Source: Neisseriaceae bacterium ESL0693
Lineage (GTDB): Bacteria > Pseudomonadota > Gammaproteobacteria > Burkholderiales > Neisseriaceae
DNA length: 64,000 nt
NCBI GenBank assembly: GCA_029433475.1
Contig: JAQTIE010000008.1
Location: 124,001 to 188,000 of the forward strand
Direction of reading: 5' to 3'
Below, piece by piece: positions 901 to 33,085 of the stretch. Within the stretch, counting starts at the first letter, position 1, and each line of letters begins with the position of its first letter. The notes under the pieces are model-generated. The model worked only from the letters and a program-made list of their open reading frames with translations, ran no database searches and was not told the origin of the DNA. Position numbers and translations under genes: made by a program.

Positions 901-1087
901 CCTGCACTACAGAGATAAACGAAAGGCATCGCAGACACGCCATTGAGATTCGACAAGACATACATCATTGACGGCCAGTAGCGTAGTAGCAGCCTGTAAA
1001 CCACTTTATAAAGTCCAAACCCAACTGAATCCACGCCAGTCTCAATACAAGGATTTAATGATCATAACAACTGATCAGCCCTGATCA

Positions 1088-2791
1088 TCAATGCCAGTGC
1101 TTGCATTTACTGGTTTTACCAATGCCCGGATTAAAACTATTGGTTGGATCAAGCTCATGCCAGAATTGGCTATATTCTGCTGAAGCCGTATACAAATGAC
1201 CCACATTATGTTCAGCCGGGTATCTGGCGCCACGATCATTTAAGTAATCCAATACCTCTTGTTTAAACTGGTGCGGGTCAACGCCTTCTTTCAGAATATA
1301 GTCCTGATGATTCACAAAACAGAAAAAATGGCCACAACAAGAATCCAGTAACACTTGCTGTTGCAGTTTTTCAGGCAGTTTTATACGCCATTCATCATCA
1401 TTGCGGCGTAAAGCCACATCAAACGCAATCAGCCGCTCTTCAGGATTAATATTATGGGCGCCACAATAATAAATGGTACAGGCGCCGACACCAAAACGAA
1501 TCAGAAACGCATTTTTTTCTTCTGCTGCGGTACATTTAAAATAACTGCCTTGCTGTTGGCTATCAGCAAAAAACTGTTGTAATAAGCCATCCAGCTCTGC
1601 CTGTGCCTCACTGTCGGTTTTAATCATCAGATGGTGTTCAAACCGGCGATGATAATCAGCAATACGGGGTTCTACCGCATCGGGGGTGATAGCATTAAAC
1701 CATTGAATGACTTTGTCTACGGTATTATCAGGAAACAGCGGTAAGCGCTTAAACCATTTATCCCAACGGTTTTTTAAGGCAAACAGTTCAGGAATTTTTT
1801 CCGGCCCGCGGTTACCGATGGCTTTATACACATGCTTGGCATAGCGCACAGTTAGATCAAATGCCTGCCGGTGAATATATTCAGTCTGACTCGGTAATAC
1901 ACTTAAATGCTGCAATAAAAACCGCCGCAATTGCACCAATTCCCGCTCATGATGGCTGCCAATATAAAAGGTAGTACTACTGGCACTGGCCGCAAAAGTG
2001 GGTAACCGCACCGCAAATACCGCCAGTTTGCCGGCACTACCGGCGCTGTCATGCAAATATTCGGGATTGCCATTATAGCGGGTAGGCGTTGATGCAGAAG
2101 TATCACGCAAATGCTCAGCATAATCACTGGCCCAGATACGCCCCGGCCAATCAGGCGCATCACCTGTGGTGTATTGCTTTGATTCCAACCGGGTGAATAT
2201 TTCGGCCGGTGTTTGCCCCAATGCTATGCCCAGATGGTTGACCAGTTGCAGTTGACCGGCTGCATCAATCTGGGCAAACAATGATTTTTCGGTAAAAGCC
2301 GGCCCGCGGCGGATAAGGGAGCCACCGGAATTATTACACACACCGCCAATAACAGAAGCACCAATACAGGAAGAACCGATCACCGAATGAGGCTCACGCT
2401 GGTAAGGCTTGAGGGCGTTTTCCAGTTCGGTCAGCGTGCTGCCGGGAAAAGCAATCACTTGTCTGGCTTCATCAATAACATGCACACCTTTTACGGCACG
2501 GGTACTAATGATCACCACATCACGGTCATACTGATCCCCATCGGGCGTTGAACCCCCGGTCACGCCGGTATTGGACGCCTGCATCAGAATAATCAGGTTA
2601 TGAGACACACAGACTTCCAGCACCTGCCAGATGGCCAACAAGGTTTGAGGCAACACCACCGCCAGCGCCTTGCCATGCCCTACTCGAAAACCTTTGGTAT
2701 ACGGCATTTTATCCAGTTCATTCAATAATACATGTGATGAACCCACTACCGCTTGTAATGCCTCAATAGCGGTATGATTGATTTTATTCAT
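1088..2791 (-). CDS. dld: Quinone-dependent D-lactate dehydrogenase
   Basis: A 567-residue FAD enzyme that oxidises D-lactate to pyruvate and passes electrons to the quinone pool at the inner face of the membrane. Length matches E. coli Dld (571). The N-terminal half is the FAD-binding fold: NTGVTGGSTPDG at residues 74-85 and a glycine-rich stretch at 138-157 (IGSSCIGAS...NNSGG) bind the cofactor. The C-terminal half has the lysine-rich membrane-binding character of the family, ending near NSFNPGIGKTSK. The gene stands alone, with a weak ribosome site (CGGAC) upstream. For an organism fed lactate by its neighbours this would be a main respiratory entry point, which is inference. Confidence 0.93.
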   Translation of the reverse strand: MNKINHTAIEALQAVVGSSHVLLNELDKMPYTKGFRVGHGKALAVVLPQTLLAIWQVLEVCVSHNLIILMQASNTGVTGGSTPDGDQYDRDVVIISTRAVKGVHVIDEARQVIAFPGSTLTELENALKPYQREPHSVIGSSCIGASVIGGVCNNSGGSLIRRGPAFTEKSLFAQIDAAGQLQLVNHLGIALGQTPAEIFTRLESKQYTTGDAPDWPGRIWASDYAEHLRDTSASTPTRYNGNPEYLHDSAGSAGKLAVFAVRLPTFAASASSTTFYIGSHHERELVQLRRFLLQHLSVLPSQTEYIHRQAFDLTVRYAKHVYKAIGNRGPEKIPELFALKNRWDKWFKRLPLFPDNTVDKVIQWFNAITPDAVEPRIADYHRRFEHHLMIKTDSEAQAELDGLLQQFFADSQQQGSYFKCTAAEEKNAFLIRFGVGACTIYYCGAHNINPEERLIAFDVALRRNDDEWRIKLPEKLQQQVLLDSCCGHFFCFVNHQDYILKEGVDPHQFKQEVLDYLNDRGARYPAEHNVGHLYTASAEYSQFWHELDPTNSFNPGIGKTSKCKHWH

Positions 2792-3334
2792 TTTATTTGT
2801 CCGAAGAAAACATCATCAATAATATGATGCAGCACAATCAAAATTCAGGTAATGGATTGTCATGAAATAATCCCTTTTTATCTTAGCACTTTTAACGCAT
2901 ATTATCAGACAAATCCACCTGATTGATGATATTAAATTTATGTGAATAATATAAATCAATAGGTTTTTTCACTAAAGTATTTATTTCTGTGATCAGACAT
3001 GAATGTAAAAACAGCTCATGACTTTTATAGAGTACCGGGATTTTCTTAATAAGAATAAAAATGATTAATATATTGATTTATTTATTTTTCTTAAAATAAT
3101 CGCTAGCGCAGTTTAACAAATAAAAATGGTATTTAATGGCACTTTTCTAAATTAACGTTAAAACATGATTATGTCAGACAGTTGATATTAAGTTAACAAT
3201 GTGATACATCAAGTTACCCAGATTAAAGCAATCTTCATGGACTACTCTATCATCTTCTTGTTATGTTTATATTAAATATAAATGCAGCAGATTAAGCGCA
3301 TTTTTTACTAACGATGAATAATAAGGAGGATTTT
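2792..3334. other. AT-rich divergent promoter region between dld and the ferritin-like gene
   Basis: About 540 bases, strongly AT-rich, separating two divergently transcribed genes. Several TATAAT-like hexamers are visible but the composition makes them uninformative. I found no clear Fur or OxyR palindrome. No gene is present. Confidence 0.5.
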
Positions 3335-3910
3335 ATGACCAAACCACTCACCAGAAATGTGAAATTCAGTACCAAAGAAGAATTACGTGCCAATGCCCGC
3401 AAGAATTATGCAGATGGTGCCATTACCTCGACTTATGAACTGGATGTCGATAAAGTCATCAGTCTTTTAAACGAAGCACTCGCTTCGGAGTGGATCTGTG
3501 TATTGCGTTATCTGCGTCATTACTACATGGCCTCAGGTTTATTCATGGATGCGGTTAAAGAAGAATTTATGGAGCATGCCCGACAGGAACAAAAGCACGC
3601 CGAATGGCTGGCCGAACGCATTACCCAGTTGGGTGGCGCCCCCGATTTAAATCCGGCTCACTTTACTGATCGCTCTCCGACCGAATACATTGAAGGTAAA
3701 GATTTACGTGATATGGTAGAAGCCAATCTGATTGCTGAACGCATTGTGATTGATGCCTATCGTGAAGCCATTTTATATGTGGGTGATTACGATACCACCA
3801 CCAAACGCATTCTGGAAAAAATTCTGGCCGAAGAAGAAGACCATGCCGATGACCTGTCTGACATGATGGAAGGCCTGGACGGAAAACCAGTTTCCAATAA
3901 GATTTTATAA
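3335..3910 (+). CDS. Ferritin-like di-iron protein (bacterioferritin/Dps type)
   Basis: A 191-residue four-helix ferritin-like protein expected to oxidise and store iron in the cytoplasm. The di-iron ligands can be picked out as E52, E85 with H88 (EQKH), E135, and E167 with H170 (EEDH), the classical E...ExxH...E...ExxH pattern. An ATG at 3314 is in frame, but AAGGAGGA at 3323-3330 sits 4 bases before the ATG at 3335, so that start is chosen. It is longer than E. coli Bfr (158) because of about 40 extra N-terminal residues. I could not see the haem-binding Met of true bacterioferritins with confidence, so no gene symbol is given. A terminator follows. Confidence 0.85.
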   Translation: MTKPLTRNVKFSTKEELRANARKNYADGAITSTYELDVDKVISLLNEALASEWICVLRYLRHYYMASGLFMDAVKEEFMEHARQEQKHAEWLAERITQLGGAPDLNPAHFTDRSPTEYIEGKDLRDMVEANLIAERIVIDAYREAILYVGDYDTTTKRILEKILAEEEDHADDLSDMMEGLDGKPVSNKIL

Positions 3911-3940
3911 GCGTTCAAAGCGCTATAGGGTAACGTATAA

Positions 3941-3980
3941 ATGTCCGGTTGTTTTCAGCAACCGGACATGATTGTTTTTA
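3941..3980 (+). terminator. Intrinsic terminator after the ferritin-like gene
   Basis: Perfect 11-bp stem ATGTCCGGTTG / CAACCGGACAT (3941-3969) with a 7-base loop, followed by GATTGTTTTTA. It lies between convergent genes and may also serve purF on the other strand. Confidence 0.8.
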
Positions 3981-4003
3981 GACACATGGCTGGGATTGGC
4001 CGG

Positions 4004-5533
4004 TCATGAATCGTCTTCATCACCAATACTGATGTTTTGTTCCAACATACCGGGAGCAACAAAACCATGGGCGGCTGCTTCTTTTAATCCGGACAAACGG
4101 GTCAGATAAGCTTCGTCAATATCGTTGGTCAGATAATGCCCGTCAAAACAGGAACCGTCAAAATCTTCTATGGCCGGATTCAAAGCCGTAATCATATTTT
4201 TTAAATCGGTCAGATTCTGAAACACCACGCCATCGGCACCGATTTCAACAGCCACCTCTTCTGCACTGCGCCGATATGAAATCAACTCCTCCCGCGTGGG
4301 CATATCAATACCATAAACATTGGGAAACCGCACCGCTGGCGCAGCTGAGGCCACAAACACCTTGCTGGCGCCGGCTTCACGTGCCATTTCCACAATTTCA
4401 CGGCTGGTGGTGCCACGCACAATTGAATCATCAACCAGCAATACTTTTTTGCCTTTGAATTCATACTGCATCGGATTAAGTTTCTGGCGTACCGATTTGG
4501 TGCGGGTGGTTTGTCCTGGCATAATGAACGTACGGCCAATATAACGATTTTTGAATAATCCCTCCCGATAAGGTTTATTCAGGTGTTGTGCCAGTTCCAT
4601 CGCACTGGGACGGCTGGTATCCGGAATGGGCATCACCACATCAATTTCATTCAGATCCAGCGCTTCTCTGACCTTTTCTGCCAGAATCACCCCCATATTC
4701 AGGCGCGCCTGATACACAGACACACCATCAATCACCGAATCCGGCCGGGCAAAATAAACGTATTCAAATAAACAGGGTTTTAATTGAGCATGATCAGCAC
4801 ATTGAGACTGAAACAATTGGCCGCGCAGGGTAATGAATACCGCTTCACCCGGTTGAATATCGCGCACGTATTCATAACCTAAACCGGCAAACACCACTGA
4901 TTCGGAAGCCACCATATAAGCGGTCTGCCCTTGTGTTTCCTTTTTACCCAGACACAGTGGCCGGATACCAAAAGGATCGCGAAAGGCCAGCAGTCCGTGG
5001 CCAGCGATCAGACTGACCACGGCATACGCACCGCGCACGCGCCGGTGAACTGCCGACACAGCGGTAAAAATGTCTTTCGCACTCAGGCGAACATGGTGAT
5101 TCACCTGATTTTCCAGTGCCCGCGCCAGTACATTCAGTAAAACTTCAGAATCAGAACCGGTATTAATGTGTCTTAAATCGGTAAAACAGACATCCTGATA
5201 CAATTCTTGCGTATTGGTTAAATTGCCATTGTGTACCAGCACAATACCAAAAGGAGAATTCACATAAAAGGGCTGCGCCTCAGCGCTGCTGCTTGGATGA
5301 CCAGCGGTGGGATAACGCACATGGGCAATGCCTATATTGCCGTGTAAATCACGCATGTGCCGGGTGTGAAACACATCTCGTACCATGCCTTTACCTTTAT
5401 GCATATGAAAGAGATTGCCCGTTGCCGTTGCAATACCTGCGGCATCCTGGCCGCGATGTTGTAATAGCTGCAAACCATCATATAATGACTGATTAACCGG
5501 TTCGTGCCCTACTATACCCAATACGCCACACAT
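4004..5533 (-). CDS. purF: Amidophosphoribosyltransferase (first step of purine synthesis)
   Basis: A 509-residue enzyme that makes phosphoribosylamine from PRPP and glutamine. The N-terminus MCGVLGIVG exposes Cys2 as the glutaminase nucleophile after Met removal. HVRYPTAG and HNGNLTN belong to the same Ntn domain. The PRPP-binding loop VLLVDDSIVRGTTS lies around residue 370. Length matches E. coli PurF (505). It is the last gene of a folC, SPOR-protein, cvpA, purF run on the minus strand, the same order as in E. coli. Confidence 0.97.
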   Translation of the reverse strand: MCGVLGIVGHEPVNQSLYDGLQLLQHRGQDAAGIATATGNLFHMHKGKGMVRDVFHTRHMRDLHGNIGIAHVRYPTAGHPSSSAEAQPFYVNSPFGIVLVHNGNLTNTQELYQDVCFTDLRHINTGSDSEVLLNVLARALENQVNHHVRLSAKDIFTAVSAVHRRVRGAYAVVSLIAGHGLLAFRDPFGIRPLCLGKKETQGQTAYMVASESVVFAGLGYEYVRDIQPGEAVFITLRGQLFQSQCADHAQLKPCLFEYVYFARPDSVIDGVSVYQARLNMGVILAEKVREALDLNEIDVVMPIPDTSRPSAMELAQHLNKPYREGLFKNRYIGRTFIMPGQTTRTKSVRQKLNPMQYEFKGKKVLLVDDSIVRGTTSREIVEMAREAGASKVFVASAAPAVRFPNVYGIDMPTREELISYRRSAEEVAVEIGADGVVFQNLTDLKNMITALNPAIEDFDGSCFDGHYLTNDIDEAYLTRLSGLKEAAAHGFVAPGMLEQNISIGDEDDS

Positions 5534-28445: not shown

Positions 28446-28476
28446 GGTCTGTAGCCAGTTTAACCGGCTACAGACC
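28446..28476. repeat. Strong hairpin at the 3' end of the cas operon
   Basis: Perfect 11-bp stem GGTCTGTAGCC / GGCTACAGACC with a 9-base loop, ending two bases before the cas7 stop codon. There is no U-run after it on either strand. It probably marks the ends of the convergent dapB and cas transcripts. Confidence 0.6.
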
Positions 28477-28478
28477 GG

Positions 28479-29342
28479 TTATAGCCATTCCTCGATACTG
28501 ACACCGGACAAACCTGTCGGGTCAACACTGATCTGATAATCACTAAAGGCAGTGGCCGGCGTACCACTGACACCATTCACTCTGGTCACCTTTACCGCAT
28601 CAAATAATTTATGCGCTGGCTGGTCACCCAAAATATGCTGATGTTTGAATACAATCAGTCTGCGTGCCGACATTTCGCCCCTGCTGGCTGACCGGTCATG
28701 TTCAAACATCAGGCATAACGCTTGCTTCAATCGTCCTAAATCTGTGGCATCGAAACCGGTTTTCTCCGCCAGTTTGGCTGAAATAAAACCGTGCACACGA
28801 TACAAAGCATACGGAATAATATATTTACGCCCCATGGTCTGTTCTTTTTCCCGATCACGCTCATTGGTCACAGCCATACGGGCAATCGTCACTTCCAATG
28901 GCATCACCACATCAATAGAACGGGCAAAATTCAATTGCACCGGACCGCGCACCTGACCACTATTAATACCTGTCGTCATGACAGCACCAAAGCAGCGCAC
29001 ATCAAAAAAATGCCGGCACATCCAGGCAGTAACTTGCTGCGCTTGTAATTCGTCTTTGGGCAGTTTTTTTACTTCAGGTTTAATGCCTAAAGCGTCATAA
29101 GCACGACGATTCTGCTCATTCAATAAACTTTTCTCTCGAATATAGATATCGCATCCTTCTTCATTTTCGAATGACAATGAAATAAAATTACGGATTTTGC
29201 GCTTCAGACAAACATCTGTTACCAATCCATGGCCTGTTTCAGGATCACGCCGCGGTAAATTGCCTGCATCCGGATCACCATTGGGATTACCATTGATTAC
29301 ATCAAAAAAATACACAAATTCATAACGATTTTTAATAGCCAT
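28479..29342 (-). CDS. cas7: Type I-C CRISPR Cas7 (Csd2), crRNA-coating backbone subunit
   Basis: A 287-residue RNA-binding subunit that polymerises along the crRNA spacer in Cascade. Diagnostic I-C sequence starts at residue 17: NGNPNGDPDAGNLPRRDP, followed by GLVTDVCLKRKIRNF. Length is usual for Csd2. AGGAG lies 6 bases before the ATG. It is the last gene of cas5-cas8c-cas7, 46 bases after cas8c. The sequence looks intact, with no frameshift, which argues for recent selection or recent loss of the rest of the system. Confidence 0.95.
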   Translation of the reverse strand: MAIKNRYEFVYFFDVINGNPNGDPDAGNLPRRDPETGHGLVTDVCLKRKIRNFISLSFENEEGCDIYIREKSLLNEQNRRAYDALGIKPEVKKLPKDELQAQQVTAWMCRHFFDVRCFGAVMTTGINSGQVRGPVQLNFARSIDVVMPLEVTIARMAVTNERDREKEQTMGRKYIIPYALYRVHGFISAKLAEKTGFDATDLGRLKQALCLMFEHDRSASRGEMSARRLIVFKHQHILGDQPAHKLFDAVKVTRVNGVSGTPATAFSDYQISVDPTGLSGVSIEEWL

Positions 29343-29388
29343 AACTTACTCCTGAGAATAATTCATTACTGATAGAAAGATGACTTTG

Positions 29389-29769
29389 TCAATCGGCAGT
29401 CGCATAAGCTCGTCTTTGCTGGCCATAACCCAAGGTAAACTGCCCTTGTTCAATCAGATTTAAATGGGAGGGAAAAGGACAAGAAGCAGGTAAACGATCC
29501 AGCAGTTGCTTTAATAATAGCTCGCTGGCTTTTACTATTGAGCGATTAGAGGTTAAGGCCAGCCATTGCTGCTCGTACATATTCAGTAGTCGGGGAAAAA
29601 TCAGGGCGGGTGTGGTACAAGCCATGCCATAATAGCGGTCTACAATATCGCTATATAATGGTTCTATTAACTGATGCTGCATGTGTGCCAGTACCGCAAA
29701 CAAACGCCCTAAGAGATAAGCACATTGATGATTGCGTTTATCCAGTTTAATGGTGGTATTCTGTTTCAT
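29389..29769 (-). CDS. Probable internal cas11c (small subunit) inside cas8c
   Basis: In type I-C systems the small subunit Cas11 is translated from an internal start in the cas8c mRNA. Here an in-frame ATG at 29769 follows GGGGC by only a few bases and would give a 126-residue, helix-rich product starting MKQNTTIKLDK and including YLLGRLFAVLAHMQ, the region expected by family comparison. The spacing of the ribosome site is short, so another start cannot be excluded. Confidence 0.45.
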   Translation of the reverse strand: MKQNTTIKLDKRNHQCAYLLGRLFAVLAHMQHQLIEPLYSDIVDRYYGMACTTPALIFPRLLNMYEQQWLALTSNRSIVKASELLLKQLLDRLPASCPFPSHLNLIEQGQFTLGYGQQRRAYATAD

Positions 29770-31131
29770 CAGCCCCAGGCGATGGCGACGTTGTAAAATA
29801 GCCTGAATCATAGAGAGGCGCAGTAAAGTCATTTTGCCTCTGCCCCGGTCAGCACCAATACGCGTCATTAACAAAGACAGTAATTCCATCGGATAAGGTT
29901 TATCAGTCAGTATGGCGGTGATCAGCTCACCAATGAATTTGGGCGACAGCAAATCTATCTGACCATACGGTGCAATTTCATACAATAACTGTCCAAAATA
30001 AAAATTGGTTTTTCTGGACATCGCCAATCCACCCAATTCTTGTTTATACTGCATCAAATGCTCTGCTATCTGACTGGCCGGCTCATCAATCCAGAATCGG
30101 ACAGCCAGACGGGCAGCATTAGGTACCAATCCAAGCACACAAAAACGGGTTATATTGTGTTTTTTTGTGCTCTCAACAGTCTTTTTGTCTTGATCAGAAA
30201 TTTCTTCTTCACCCACATTCATGATCTGTCTGAATAATATTTCTGCATTAGATACTGACTGGCTGCGTGTATCATGTGTCCAAAATACAATATTCAGATC
30301 AGAGAAATGGCAACATTGTTTATCCGTCTGGTTCAAAAGATAATTCAGTGCAGTGGTATACGCAAAAGCCGATTCAATCGCCACTGGGGCATTATGACCC
30401 TGTTTTTTACCATAAGAAGCAAAAGCATTCTGATTGAAAGAAATCATGGACACACCCAGACTGGAAGCACCATATACATGTTTTATGGGTGGATGCAGCA
30501 TGGCCAAAGGGTTTGGCAAACCATCGGTCAGACAATTTATCCTGACCGGCTGCTGGCGTGCCAGATAACGCAGCCAGAGATCACGTGCCGCATGACGCTG
30601 ATGAATATAGCCTTGATCTTCATCCAGCATAAACACCAGATTCATTGACACAATACAATTTTGTTGCGGCTCAGTCAGATCAGCAAACATGGCCGGCTGC
30701 CACTGTTGCAGAAATAAATAAACCGCGCGCAAACCTTGATCTATTTCATCTTTTAATAATTCAATATGATATTGTCTGAACGCATTGAATGGTTTTGACT
30801 GAATGGTAAAGCGGGGCTGATGTTCATCGGCCGGATCTTTAACCGCCTCTACACCCAATACATAAACCGATTTATCCCATAGAAAATTGGGTTGAATCCC
30901 TGAAGTACGTTTGACCGGCTGCGGAACAATCAGTCGTTTCGGTTTTAATTGATTTTTATTGTTGGTTAACATATGGCTGCGCACATCAACCAGTTTTCCC
31001 TCAGCTGATAAAACCAGAATCGCCCCGATATTTTCCTCACTGAATCCGTATAAAGGTATCTGGGCAGCAACCGCATCATCTGACGTTTGCAATAAAGATT
31101 GATAATACTGAATCAGGCGGGTCAATATCAT
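29389..31131 (-). CDS. cas8c: Type I-C CRISPR Cas8c (Csd1), large subunit
   Basis: A 580-residue large subunit expected to recognise the PAM and start R-loop formation. It begins MILTRLIQYYQSLL, typical of Csd1. Length agrees with the family (about 580-610). The open frame extends 7 codons further, but the ATG at 31131 overlaps the cas5 stop as ATGA and is preceded by GGGGA, so it is preferred. The C-terminal 126 residues match the region that in type I-C is also made separately as Cas11c. Confidence 0.92.
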   Translation of the reverse strand: MILTRLIQYYQSLLQTSDDAVAAQIPLYGFSEENIGAILVLSAEGKLVDVRSHMLTNNKNQLKPKRLIVPQPVKRTSGIQPNFLWDKSVYVLGVEAVKDPADEHQPRFTIQSKPFNAFRQYHIELLKDEIDQGLRAVYLFLQQWQPAMFADLTEPQQNCIVSMNLVFMLDEDQGYIHQRHAARDLWLRYLARQQPVRINCLTDGLPNPLAMLHPPIKHVYGASSLGVSMISFNQNAFASYGKKQGHNAPVAIESAFAYTTALNYLLNQTDKQCCHFSDLNIVFWTHDTRSQSVSNAEILFRQIMNVGEEEISDQDKKTVESTKKHNITRFCVLGLVPNAARLAVRFWIDEPASQIAEHLMQYKQELGGLAMSRKTNFYFGQLLYEIAPYGQIDLLSPKFIGELITAILTDKPYPMELLSLLMTRIGADRGRGKMTLLRLSMIQAILQRRHRLGLMKQNTTIKLDKRNHQCAYLLGRLFAVLAHMQHQLIEPLYSDIVDRYYGMACTTPALIFPRLLNMYEQQWLALTSNRSIVKASELLLKQLLDRLPASCPFPSHLNLIEQGQFTLGYGQQRRAYATAD

Positions 31132-31805
31132 GTTAAATCCCCATCTACCCACCCTGAAGGAACATTGATAATTCCGTTCTGTAATTTGGCATGATAAAAA
31201 TGAGGGGTTGCATCGTTGGCAAAATCAATATCATGCAGCATCCAACCCAGATCCTGATTAGCCTCTTGCGCGGACAGATTGGAAATCGGCCAGACGCTGT
31301 CTTCATCCAGCCAGTTAAACCAGGCCGGAAATTCACGCATGCCCAAGCATGGCTGATGAAAACACTGTCCTTTCATGGCGCGGCGTTTAAAAATCTCCAG
31401 ATGTTTTTTGATATTGTCATCCGGCCCTAACCTATCAGTCAGACGAACATGAGCCTCAATAATATAACTGACATTTTTTAAAACCATTGAGTATCGTTGC
31501 TGGCGGTCATCTTCAATATGGGTGCATAAATTATCCAGATGATGATTTCTGATGCTTTGTGCTGCATTTCTATAAGAAATTTTACTGCCCAGTTCGTTAC
31601 GCTTAATTGATTCAAAACAGATAGGATTGAGAACATGAATTTTATCCACTACCCAGAAAATGGCCGGTTTCCAGTGTATGGCTTCTAAAATGCCTCTGGC
31701 TGCCGATGGTGTCAGTACATCATAGGATACCCGTTCAGCCTTCATTTCAGGTCTGGTAAAACAGGCATAATCGCCACCAACATGCAGACGCACTATATTA
31801 CTCAT
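31128..31805 (-). CDS. cas5: Type I-C CRISPR Cas5c (Cas5d), crRNA-processing subunit
   Basis: A 225-residue RAMP protein that in type I-C cuts the pre-crRNA, replacing Cas6, and then caps the crRNA 5' handle. SYDVLTPSAARGILEAIHWKP and VLNPICFESIKRNE are the I-C signature. The catalytic pair Lys-His of B. halodurans Cas5d (K116, H117) aligns with K134-H135 in NIKKHLEIF. The catalytic Tyr46 corresponds to H44 here. First gene of the operon; its stop overlaps the cas8c start. No cas3 precedes it, which is unusual. Confidence 0.93.
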   Translation of the reverse strand: MSNIVRLHVGGDYACFTRPEMKAERVSYDVLTPSAARGILEAIHWKPAIFWVVDKIHVLNPICFESIKRNELGSKISYRNAAQSIRNHHLDNLCTHIEDDRQQRYSMVLKNVSYIIEAHVRLTDRLGPDDNIKKHLEIFKRRAMKGQCFHQPCLGMREFPAWFNWLDEDSVWPISNLSAQEANQDLGWMLHDIDFANDATPHFYHAKLQNGIINVPSGWVDGDLT

Positions 31806-31874: not shown

Positions 31875-31914
31875 CATTAATCACAGCCACCCGCAGGGGT
31901 AGCTGTGATTAATG
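31875..31914. repeat. Long imperfect palindrome between the cas5 promoter region and the repeat-like sequence
   Basis: Arms CATTAATCACAGC (31875-31887) and GCTGTGATTAATG (31902-31914) enclose a C/A mismatch and ACCC / GGGT with loop GCAG: 17 of 18 pairs. On the minus strand TTTTAAAAAT follows, so it could stop or attenuate transcripts entering cas5 from upstream. Its GC-rich core and the GTGATT after it also recall a worn I-C repeat. Confidence 0.65.
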
Positions 31915-31938
31915 AGACCTACTGAATCATAGATATAT

Positions 31939-31969
31939 GTTTCAATCCACAGTACGTAATGCCATAGAC
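31939..31969 (-). CRISPR. Solitary type I-C-like CRISPR repeat (remnant)
   Basis: Read on the minus strand, 31 bases begin with GTC and end with GTGGATTGAAAC (31950-31939). That 12-base end is identical to the conserved 3' end of typical type I-C repeats, which are usually 32 bases. The centre differs from the usual GC-rich stem and is only weakly palindromic. No second exact copy occurs within the window, so it is not an array. The next 32 bases toward cas5 reach the long hairpin, roughly a spacer's length. Confidence 0.4.
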
Positions 31970-32290
31970 ATGATGTACGATACTTAATATTGTTATCGGT
32001 GCCGATGAATGCTCACAGGCAATCAAGTAATTCATAAACCAATTAAAACATAATGTTTTCAATTGACTTATAGCCTCTATATCATATTAATTATTGATTA
32101 ATATAAATATTATATTTGAATGAAATTCAGGATGCATGATTAAGTTCAACTACCCATTTATTAAAACAATATTTAACAAGATTTAATCTTACTGAATATA
32201 TCAACTATATTCAAGTAAAAATTATAATTAACACTCTAATTTTTCTAATTTATATATCTATGGAAATATTAACAATTCATAAGACAATAT

Positions 32291-32315
32291 ATTTTGCTGA
32301 TTTGATCAGCAAAAT
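32291..32315. repeat. 10-bp hairpin in the AT-rich desert
   Basis: ATTTTGCTGA / TCAGCAAAAT with a 5-base loop. A-rich sequence follows on the plus strand. On the minus strand there is no U-run after the stem. Function unknown. Confidence 0.5.
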
Positions 32316-33085
32316 AAAAAGATAAAATTTCTTTATCATACGAAATAAATCATTGGATGACTCTCAATGCGATAATGTGCAATAAAAAATATATATCTTT
32401 GTTTTATTAATTATTTAAATTTAAAGGGTGTGATTTAAATTGAAATTTACCCAAATAAGATGATTATGTCAGAAACTGTTTTCAGGTAAATTAAAAAATG
32501 GAATGTCTTTTTCATTGAAAATTTATACATTCAATACATTTATTCAAATGGTATATAAAATATAAAAAATTGTCTTATTTTTGATCATAACCATCAAATA
32601 ACATAAATGTAATAAAAATAATGTAAAATTAATAAAATGAAATCATTTATTGTTATGATTTTAGAATATTTAATGTTATCTATGGTTTAATCAAAACCAC
32701 AAAATTCTGTCATAGGTTTAACAGAATAATAAAATTATTATTTTACAATAAATTATAGGACTATTAACCAGACTCTTCATCATCGCTGGTATAAAACAAC
32801 TTAAATCTTATCTCTATCTAAATATTCAAATTATTGATATTTATGAAATTTATAGTAATGATATTTATTTTCACCAAAAAAATCTTCAATTCAAATCATT
32901 AAACATGATTATGTTATTCAATTTATTATTCAATATTTTAAAAAACTGACTTTACCTTTATTTCAAAAGCATAATCGTATCAGTCAGCAACTGCAACCAC
33001 TATTGTTAACAAGGTCACCAGATCTGACGTCTTTAAATCAATATAATCCAAAGAAGAGCGATCTGGTAACAACATCATTGCGGTT

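Follow-up and report, generated by a model that had tools for sequence, protein, structure and literature searches.

Type I-C genes and a putative guide element in strain ESL0693

A 64,000-nt stretch of the genome of Neisseriaceae bacterium ESL0693 (assembly GCA_029433475.1, contig JAQTIE010000008.1, positions 124,001 to 188,000; hereafter the window) carries three type I-C genes, cas5c, cas8c and cas7, of a CRISPR (clustered regularly interspaced short palindromic repeats) system, with a crRNA (CRISPR RNA)-like element directly upstream of cas5. The three genes lie on the minus strand and are intact according to Pfam, PADLOC and NCBIfam, all of them scoring above the NCBIfam cut-offs (Table 1), which confirms their description in an earlier note on this DNA. 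The start of cas8c is better placed at ATG 31131, where it overlaps the cas5 stop as ATGA, than at GTG 31152, where the listed open reading frame (ORF) begins. A possible internal start for Cas11c is present in cas8c at codon 455, preceded by a GGGG run, and the Cas11 chains of solved I-C Cascades (CRISPR-associated complexes for antiviral defence) align to Cas8c from residue 462-464 onward. The Cascade of this locus probably includes an internally translated Cas11.

Directly upstream of cas5, two degenerate I-C repeats, termed here psiR1 and psiR2, surround one spacer, psiS (31875-31970, minus strand). One example of a repeat from the I-C arrays of this clade is CAGCCGCCTTCGGGCGGCTGTGTGTTGAAAC. 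When a repeat covariance model built from 12 distinct I-C repeats was run unfiltered over the whole window, psiR1 and psiR2 were its two best matches; they share the operon strand and lie 33 nt apart. By a rough estimate, a pair at array spacing on the operon strand would arise by chance at about 1e-5. The sequence GGATTGAAAC is found once in the 64 kb, against 0.16 expected, and Rfam has no match in the window. In haloarchaeal CreA, psiR1 conserves the Cas5-binding nucleotides and psiR2 degenerates there (PMC9458426). The element in the window likewise is crRNA-like, has degenerate repeats, is linked to cas genes, and keeps the handle in psiR1 but not in psiR2.

A candidate target of psiS lies at 32252, 447 nt upstream of cas5 and on the strand opposite the operon; it is the longest psiS seed match in the window besides psiS itself. 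The site agrees with psiS at 10/10 seed positions (nt 1-5 and 7-11); none of 1000 shuffles of the 1115-nt region between psiR1 and the next gene gave such a match beside TTC or TTT, and 11 contiguous nucleotides with any protospacer-adjacent motif (PAM) occurred in 0.33% of 3000 shuffles. The 1.3-kb gene desert described earlier does extend over 1280 bp without a long ORF, but it is not empty, as it holds a two-repeat mini-CRISPR adjoining cas5 and this candidate target. Beyond it lies a MoaC-like gene, and the other side of the trio is bounded by dapB, as had been stated; these neighbours were named by reading, and the ORFs neighbouring the trio likewise read as housekeeping-like.

Table 1. 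Features of the type I-C locus, in positions of the window.
Feature	Position	Strand	Evidence or remarks
cas7 (Csd2), intact	28479-29342	-	NCBIfam 356.5 vs cut-off 182.25 bits; Pfam; PADLOC
cas8c (Csd1), intact	29389-31131	-	NCBIfam 373.7 vs cut-off 218.65 bits; Pfam; PADLOC
cas5c, intact	31128-31805	-	NCBIfam 172.3 vs cut-off 85 bits; Pfam; PADLOC
psiR2, degenerate I-C repeat	31875-31914	-	18-bp hairpin kept, handle lost; model match 31905-31882
psiS, spacer-like guide	31906-31938	-	33 nt, counting psiR2 from CAGC
38-aa ORF	31919-32035	-	overlaps psiR1 and psiS; coding status doubtful; no Pfam match
psiR1, degenerate I-C repeat	31939-31970	-	handle CTGTGGATTGAAAC kept, hairpin lost; model match 31962-31939
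AT-rich region without long ORFs	31971-33085		22.5% G+C; between psiR1 and the MoaC-like gene
Promoter-like TTAGAA-16 nt-TATAAT	32221-32248	-	towards the operon, abutting the PAM; weak -35
Candidate psiS target	32252-32262	+	11 contiguous seed nt; PAM position 32249-32251 = TTT
Terminator-like hairpin	32290-32316	-	12 bp; just above the target; lone in the AT-rich region

Similar elements in other I-C loci

Similar repeat pairs are found upstream of cas5 in relatives, many of them between cas3 and cas5. Of 88 I-C loci with enough upstream sequence, 20 have an element with a handle and a hairpin before cas5 (the window and 19 of 87 others), and the rate was 0 in 20 letter shuffles per locus; the rule was fixed after the loci had been viewed, and the control consisted of single-letter shuffles. 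Two loci, L115 and L116, had been excluded as copies of L085 and L078 before this count and the comparison of 89 trios given below. The 19 relatives with the element are L074, L076-L080, L083-L088, L109, L111, L114, L117, L118, L135 and L155. They include Haemophilus, Aggregatibacter, Chelonobacter, Vibrio, Lysobacteraceae, Azoarcus and Ramlibacter; the others fall in a genus including Neisseria. The inner 7-bp stems of psiR2 are of 13 distinct forms among the 19 listed, with changes on both sides and the pairing kept.

CreA pairs with the toxin promoter beside TTC through its nucleotides 1-5 and 7-11, and changes at the 6th and 12th positions are immaterial (PMC8501985). The same positions, flanked by TTC or TTT, were scored in 17 loci, namely the window and 16 relatives with a gap between cas3 and the element. 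The psiS of a locus agreed with the gap of the same locus at 9 or more of the 10 positions in 14 of the 17 loci and at all 10 in nine, counts in which relatives within one psiS group are not independent. Mismatched psiS-gap pairs reached 9 or 10 in 1 of 210 and 10/10 in 0 of 210, with gaps trimmed to 1200 nt and psiS pairs sharing their first 4 nt excluded. All 17 loci have their best site on the opposite strand to the operon, and in 13 of the 16 relatives it is at most 33 nt from the start of the gap, i.e., just past the end of cas3. The three misses are L074 and L220 (8/10 each) and L087 (7/10 with TTC or TTT, 10 with TTA). Three element-bearing loci, L085, L111 and L135, are outside the 17-locus set, and L085 and L111 reached 6/10 against 5 kb of upstream sequence. 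A strict scan for a contiguous seed beside TTC only had given almost no matches in 22 candidate elements; matches emerged once the 6th and 12th positions were ignored, and the rule was adopted after that scan. An earlier pass, before longer gaps were included, gave 10/10 in 8 of 18 relatives.

Nine gaps were inspected, and a small ORF follows promoter-like sequence near the target. The ORF of L076 encodes a DUF2188 protein (E 8e-23), and by reading the same family occurs in L079, L088 and L114 and, as a shorter frame, in L086. In L077, L117, L118 and L155 (Azoarcus taiwanensis) the ORF reads as a small protein with a membrane-like stretch, without a Pfam match in the case of L077. Larger gaps hold SIR2-like and HerA-like genes (L074) or a type III restriction enzyme (L085). 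These gap genes are candidates for silencing by Cascade.

A different arrangement is seen in a fecal I-C locus deposited as phage (MT836695.1), in which a repeat pair at 41-131, with its copies 68 nt apart, lies directly upstream of cas3; this is a possible CreR element. Two other matches filed as phage were rejected as such because they resemble bacterial I-C loci: both hold cas1 and cas4, one also cas3 and the other a 31-copy array.

Missing I-C functions and a separate I-F system

The assembly comprises 2.23 Mb in 25 contigs and is 99.99% complete, and the contig measures 218,855 bases, so that the locus lies in the interior of the contig. A plasmid collection held no DNA near-identical to the locus. 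Searches of the whole genome bear out the absence of an I-C cas3: cas3_core gave five matches, none above the cut-off and the best inside the Cas2-3 of an I-F system, and the sole match of the Cas3c model is inside the same protein (E 4.8e-4). The single Cas1 match in the genome is beside this I-F Cas2-3, and no cas1 was found by reading among the ORFs adjoining the trio. The reported lack of adaptation genes thus stands for cas1, which the genome-wide search covered; cas2 and cas4 were not searched genome-wide. A pattern search of the genome found no array-like pair of GGATTGAAAC. The I-C repeat model gave no convincing repeat among the 150 of 2142 candidates scored genome-wide (three matches, the best 19.6 bits over 16 nt); as its matches did not include the window's own pair, the result speaks to the absence of good arrays and leaves room for degenerate repeats.

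The I-F locus comprises Cas1, a Cas2-3 assigned to I-F by PADLOC, and four genes that read by eye as cas8f, cas5f, cas7f and cas6f. Its repeat has 63 exact-pattern matches in the genome and differs from the I-C repeats in sequence and at its end. The I-F features lie on contigs C2, C4, C23 and C25 (loci L103-L107): the repeats sit in short arrays on contigs other than that of the cas genes, several kb apart on C4, and no array was seen within the 17 kb read around the I-F genes. A cas3 with a matching array elsewhere in the genome, named in the earlier note as evidence against its reading, was looked for and not found, the arrays present being I-F.

These results bear on two immune roles. As Cas2-3 and many I-F repeats are present in the same genome, the I-C Cascade might borrow its nuclease or crRNAs from the I-F system; the difference between the two kinds of repeat makes this most improbable, and we know of no case of an I-C Cascade using Cas2-3. 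The earlier note had suggested, as one possibility, that crRNA-guided complexes bind without cutting, for instance to block phage promoters; the crRNAs would then come from an array. I-C Cascade alone is indeed a strong repressor, acting about 700-fold on a promoter in Escherichia coli (PMC10810201), but the genome has no I-C array that could be found and its I-F repeats differ in sequence, so antiviral silencing of this kind is unsupported and highly unlikely. The proposed binding-only role itself is favoured in a regulatory form; the note had missed both the guide element and the candidate target.

Distribution and divergence of the I-C genes

Among 14 genomes of the genus, the only Cas8c match is that of the window, all 13 others being without one; the trio is therefore not conserved across the genus, contrary to what had been expected under the proposed role. 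In the family, which includes Neisseria, 30 of 83 genomes have a match. The dapB region of 12 sister genomes holds none of the three cas genes (tblastn), and in 11 of the 12 a Cys-rich gene and a helix-turn-helix (HTH) gene lie downstream of dapB by reading. Two of the 12 (L035 and L039) have an extra HTH-type gene and a partner adjoining dapB, and the slot on this side of dapB therefore looks like an insertion hotspot.

Relatives of the trio usually retain cas3. Cas3c is present in seven of eight other I-C Cas8c genomes searched, and the eighth (G036) has stops in cas8c. Among the named relatives, which are the best 80 of at least 446, cas3 was found within the stretch examined in 71. Of the nine without it (L111, L115, L116, L149, L151, L168, L171, L174 and L178), L149, L151, L168, L171, L174 and L178 come from contigs 3.2 to 7.2 kb long, and L115 and L116 belong to genomes with Cas3c (G051 and G049). 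Forty-two plasmid records have a Cas8c match; five were opened and four of these list cas3. The fifth, from Salipiger, has cas8c and cas7, a cut cas5 with an IS3 transposase beside it, and no cas3 in the stretch.

The effector subunits have diverged unevenly. The closest relatives listed are about 70-74% identical in Cas7, 60-64% in Cas5 and 35-43% in Cas8c; no relative exceeds 44% in Cas8c among the matches listed, and a search of the order (20 of 399 genomes matched) gave the same result. Among 89 trios, that of the window has the Cas8c most diverged relative to Cas5 and Cas7 (mean residual -0.074, the next being -0.048). Near-invariant positions are changed at 5 of 63 in Cas8c (rank 2 of 89), 2 of 50 in Cas5 and 3 of 81 in Cas7 (rank 10 of 89 each). 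Cas8c is the Cas3-recruiting subunit (PMC7684278), and its uneven change fits a release from Cas3 binding.

The same changes would also fit the start of decay, and intact reading frames, which had been taken as a sign of selection, are insufficient alone when Cas8c departs at these near-invariant positions. The main rival explanation is a decaying remnant, in which cas3, the adaptation genes, the array and the toxin have been lost so recently that the trio, the guide and the target can still be read. This appears possible, though we consider it somewhat improbable. The presence of the locus in a single genome of the genus and the state of Cas8c would follow from it, no toxin was recognised in the window, and partial I-C loci do exist, such as those of Salipiger and G036. 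Three full-length frames without a stop in about 3.3 kb, the normal conservation of Cas5 and Cas7, and a 10/10 seed match kept beside the trio argue the other way.

Relation to known Cascade-guided regulation

CreTA systems are described for haloarchaeal I-B, Acinetobacter I-F and Citrobacter rodentium I-E loci. They share with the window a psiR-psiS element in or beside the cas operon, in which psiR1 but not psiR2 retains the handle. In the archaeal cases the seed also matches, over positions 1-5 and 7-11, a nearby promoter flanked by a PAM, to which the site beside TTT and a promoter-like sequence in the window may correspond. The I-C relatives described here resemble the I-F and I-E systems in the place of the element, after cas3 and before the first effector gene; in those two systems Cas3 is dispensable. 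In Acinetobacter, CreA activity is lost without the Csy complex and not without Cas1 or Cas3 (PMC10097628). In C. rodentium in the mouse gut, the Cascade genes are needed and cas3, cas1 and cas2 are not, because a Cascade-repressed toxin is encoded between cas3 and casA (PMC12055562). The window differs from these systems in being I-C, in having lost cas3, the adaptation genes and the array, in having no recognised toxin gene, and in TTT in place of TTC.

CreR is an RNA that resembles a crRNA and directs the effector to a cas promoter by partial complementarity. It is recorded for types I-B, I-E and V-A in PMC13131331; I-C is outside that list, and in the window the target promoter is only presumed to serve the cas genes. 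No I-C CreTA or CreR was found in the literature searched, from which the founding CreTA, CreR and CrePA papers were absent, so that an earlier prediction for I-C is possible.

The canonical I-C systems of Neisseria and Pasteurellaceae have the same gene order, cas5c-cas8c-cas7, but most relatives have cas3 (in the proportion given above) and cas1, and the window has neither. A viral contig, IMGVR_UViG_3300048091_000277 (L203), resembles the window in having cas5-cas8c-cas7 (985-4799) preceded by degenerate repeats, and differs in that the repeats number three and that no target was found in the stretch examined. No cas1, cas3 or cas4 match was found in the 11.8 kb examined, which reach 1.45 kb upstream of cas5, so that a cas3 beyond this point is possible. 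Its neighbouring genes match phage methyltransferase, integrase and PAPS reductase families.

A proposed role of the Cascade as a one-guide repressor

Taken together, the locus is on balance probably a working repressor of the CreA/CreR type, in which an I-C Cascade has outlived Cas3, the adaptation genes and the array by means of a private crRNA-like guide. Direct support comes from the intact genes, from the finding of no I-C cas3, cas1 or array, from the repeat pair and the seed match, and from the same geometry in relatives. Transcription and processing of the guide, binding, repression and any toxin are what we infer from these features.

The psiR1-psiS-psiR2 transcript would be matured to a guide with a 5' handle from psiR1 and a 3' hairpin from psiR2, and would be loaded into Cascade. 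The psiS seed would then pair with the site at 32252 beside TTT, and the bound complex would block the promoter-like sequence at 32221-32248, which points to the guide and the cas genes. If the 250 nt downstream yield a toxic RNA or peptide, the element would operate as a CreTA-type toxin switch; if the promoter serves the cas operon and no toxin is made, CreR-type autorepression would result.

Several observations weigh against a working repressor, in addition to the restriction to one genome of the genus and the changes in Cas8c. The triplet at the PAM position is TTT rather than TTC, and if only TTC is allowed, no seed run in the region is longer than 3 nt. The region is AT-rich, with 1.4% of its 11-mers occurring there more than once. 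The -35 is weak, promoter-like sites in the region show no excess over shuffles (15 against 14.5 expected), and the site at 32221-32248 was absent from the matches of a promoter scan. A partly matching site elsewhere (C2:54700; TTC and 13 of 14 nt) reads as lying past the 3' end of a gene. In the 250 nt from the -10 to psiR1 no ORF could be recognised as a toxin gene, unlike in several relatives; a missing ORF is compatible with a toxic RNA, as RNA toxins would leave none. psiR1 offers Cas5c no stem to cleave, so the 5' end of the guide would need another origin.

The repeats themselves add to these points. Each is by itself a weak match to the model (E 0.32 and 0.53), and three other places in the genome outscore both. 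The pair could thus be a chance similarity, the trio acting in some unrelated way. Their common strand, their spacing, their place adjoining cas5 and the recurrence of this arrangement in the 19 other loci make such a coincidence very unlikely.

A Cre-type repressor would also account for what has been kept. Since repression does not require Cas3, a Cascade stripped of its immune functions can still be retained through addiction or autoregulation, and the Cas3-independent repression described for Acinetobacter and C. rodentium (PMC10097628; PMC12055562) could explain the survival of this half of the system. By analogy with these systems, a locus that keeps only the effector and a guide is what Cas3-independent Cre repression would predict.

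Implications for type I-C systems

The locus is more than three leftover genes; its guide element belongs to a class present in 20 of the 88 I-C loci compared. We tentatively propose an "addicted Cascade", in which CreTA-type regulation has kept an I-C Cascade as a stand-alone repressor with one guide. More widely, a creA-like element in some I-C loci of Neisseria, Pasteurellaceae and others might silence the cargo between cas3 and cas5 (DUF2188 proteins, small membrane proteins, SIR2-HerA and type III restriction) until Cascade fails.

If this is true, the strain would provide a natural case of what CRISPR addiction predicts, a Cascade persisting for regulation alone, without Cas3 or memory, and the minimal repressor would consist of three genes and one guide. 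The comparison across loci adds subtype I-C to the range of CreA-like guides and points to Cascade control of accessory defence genes and small toxins encoded between cas3 and cas5.

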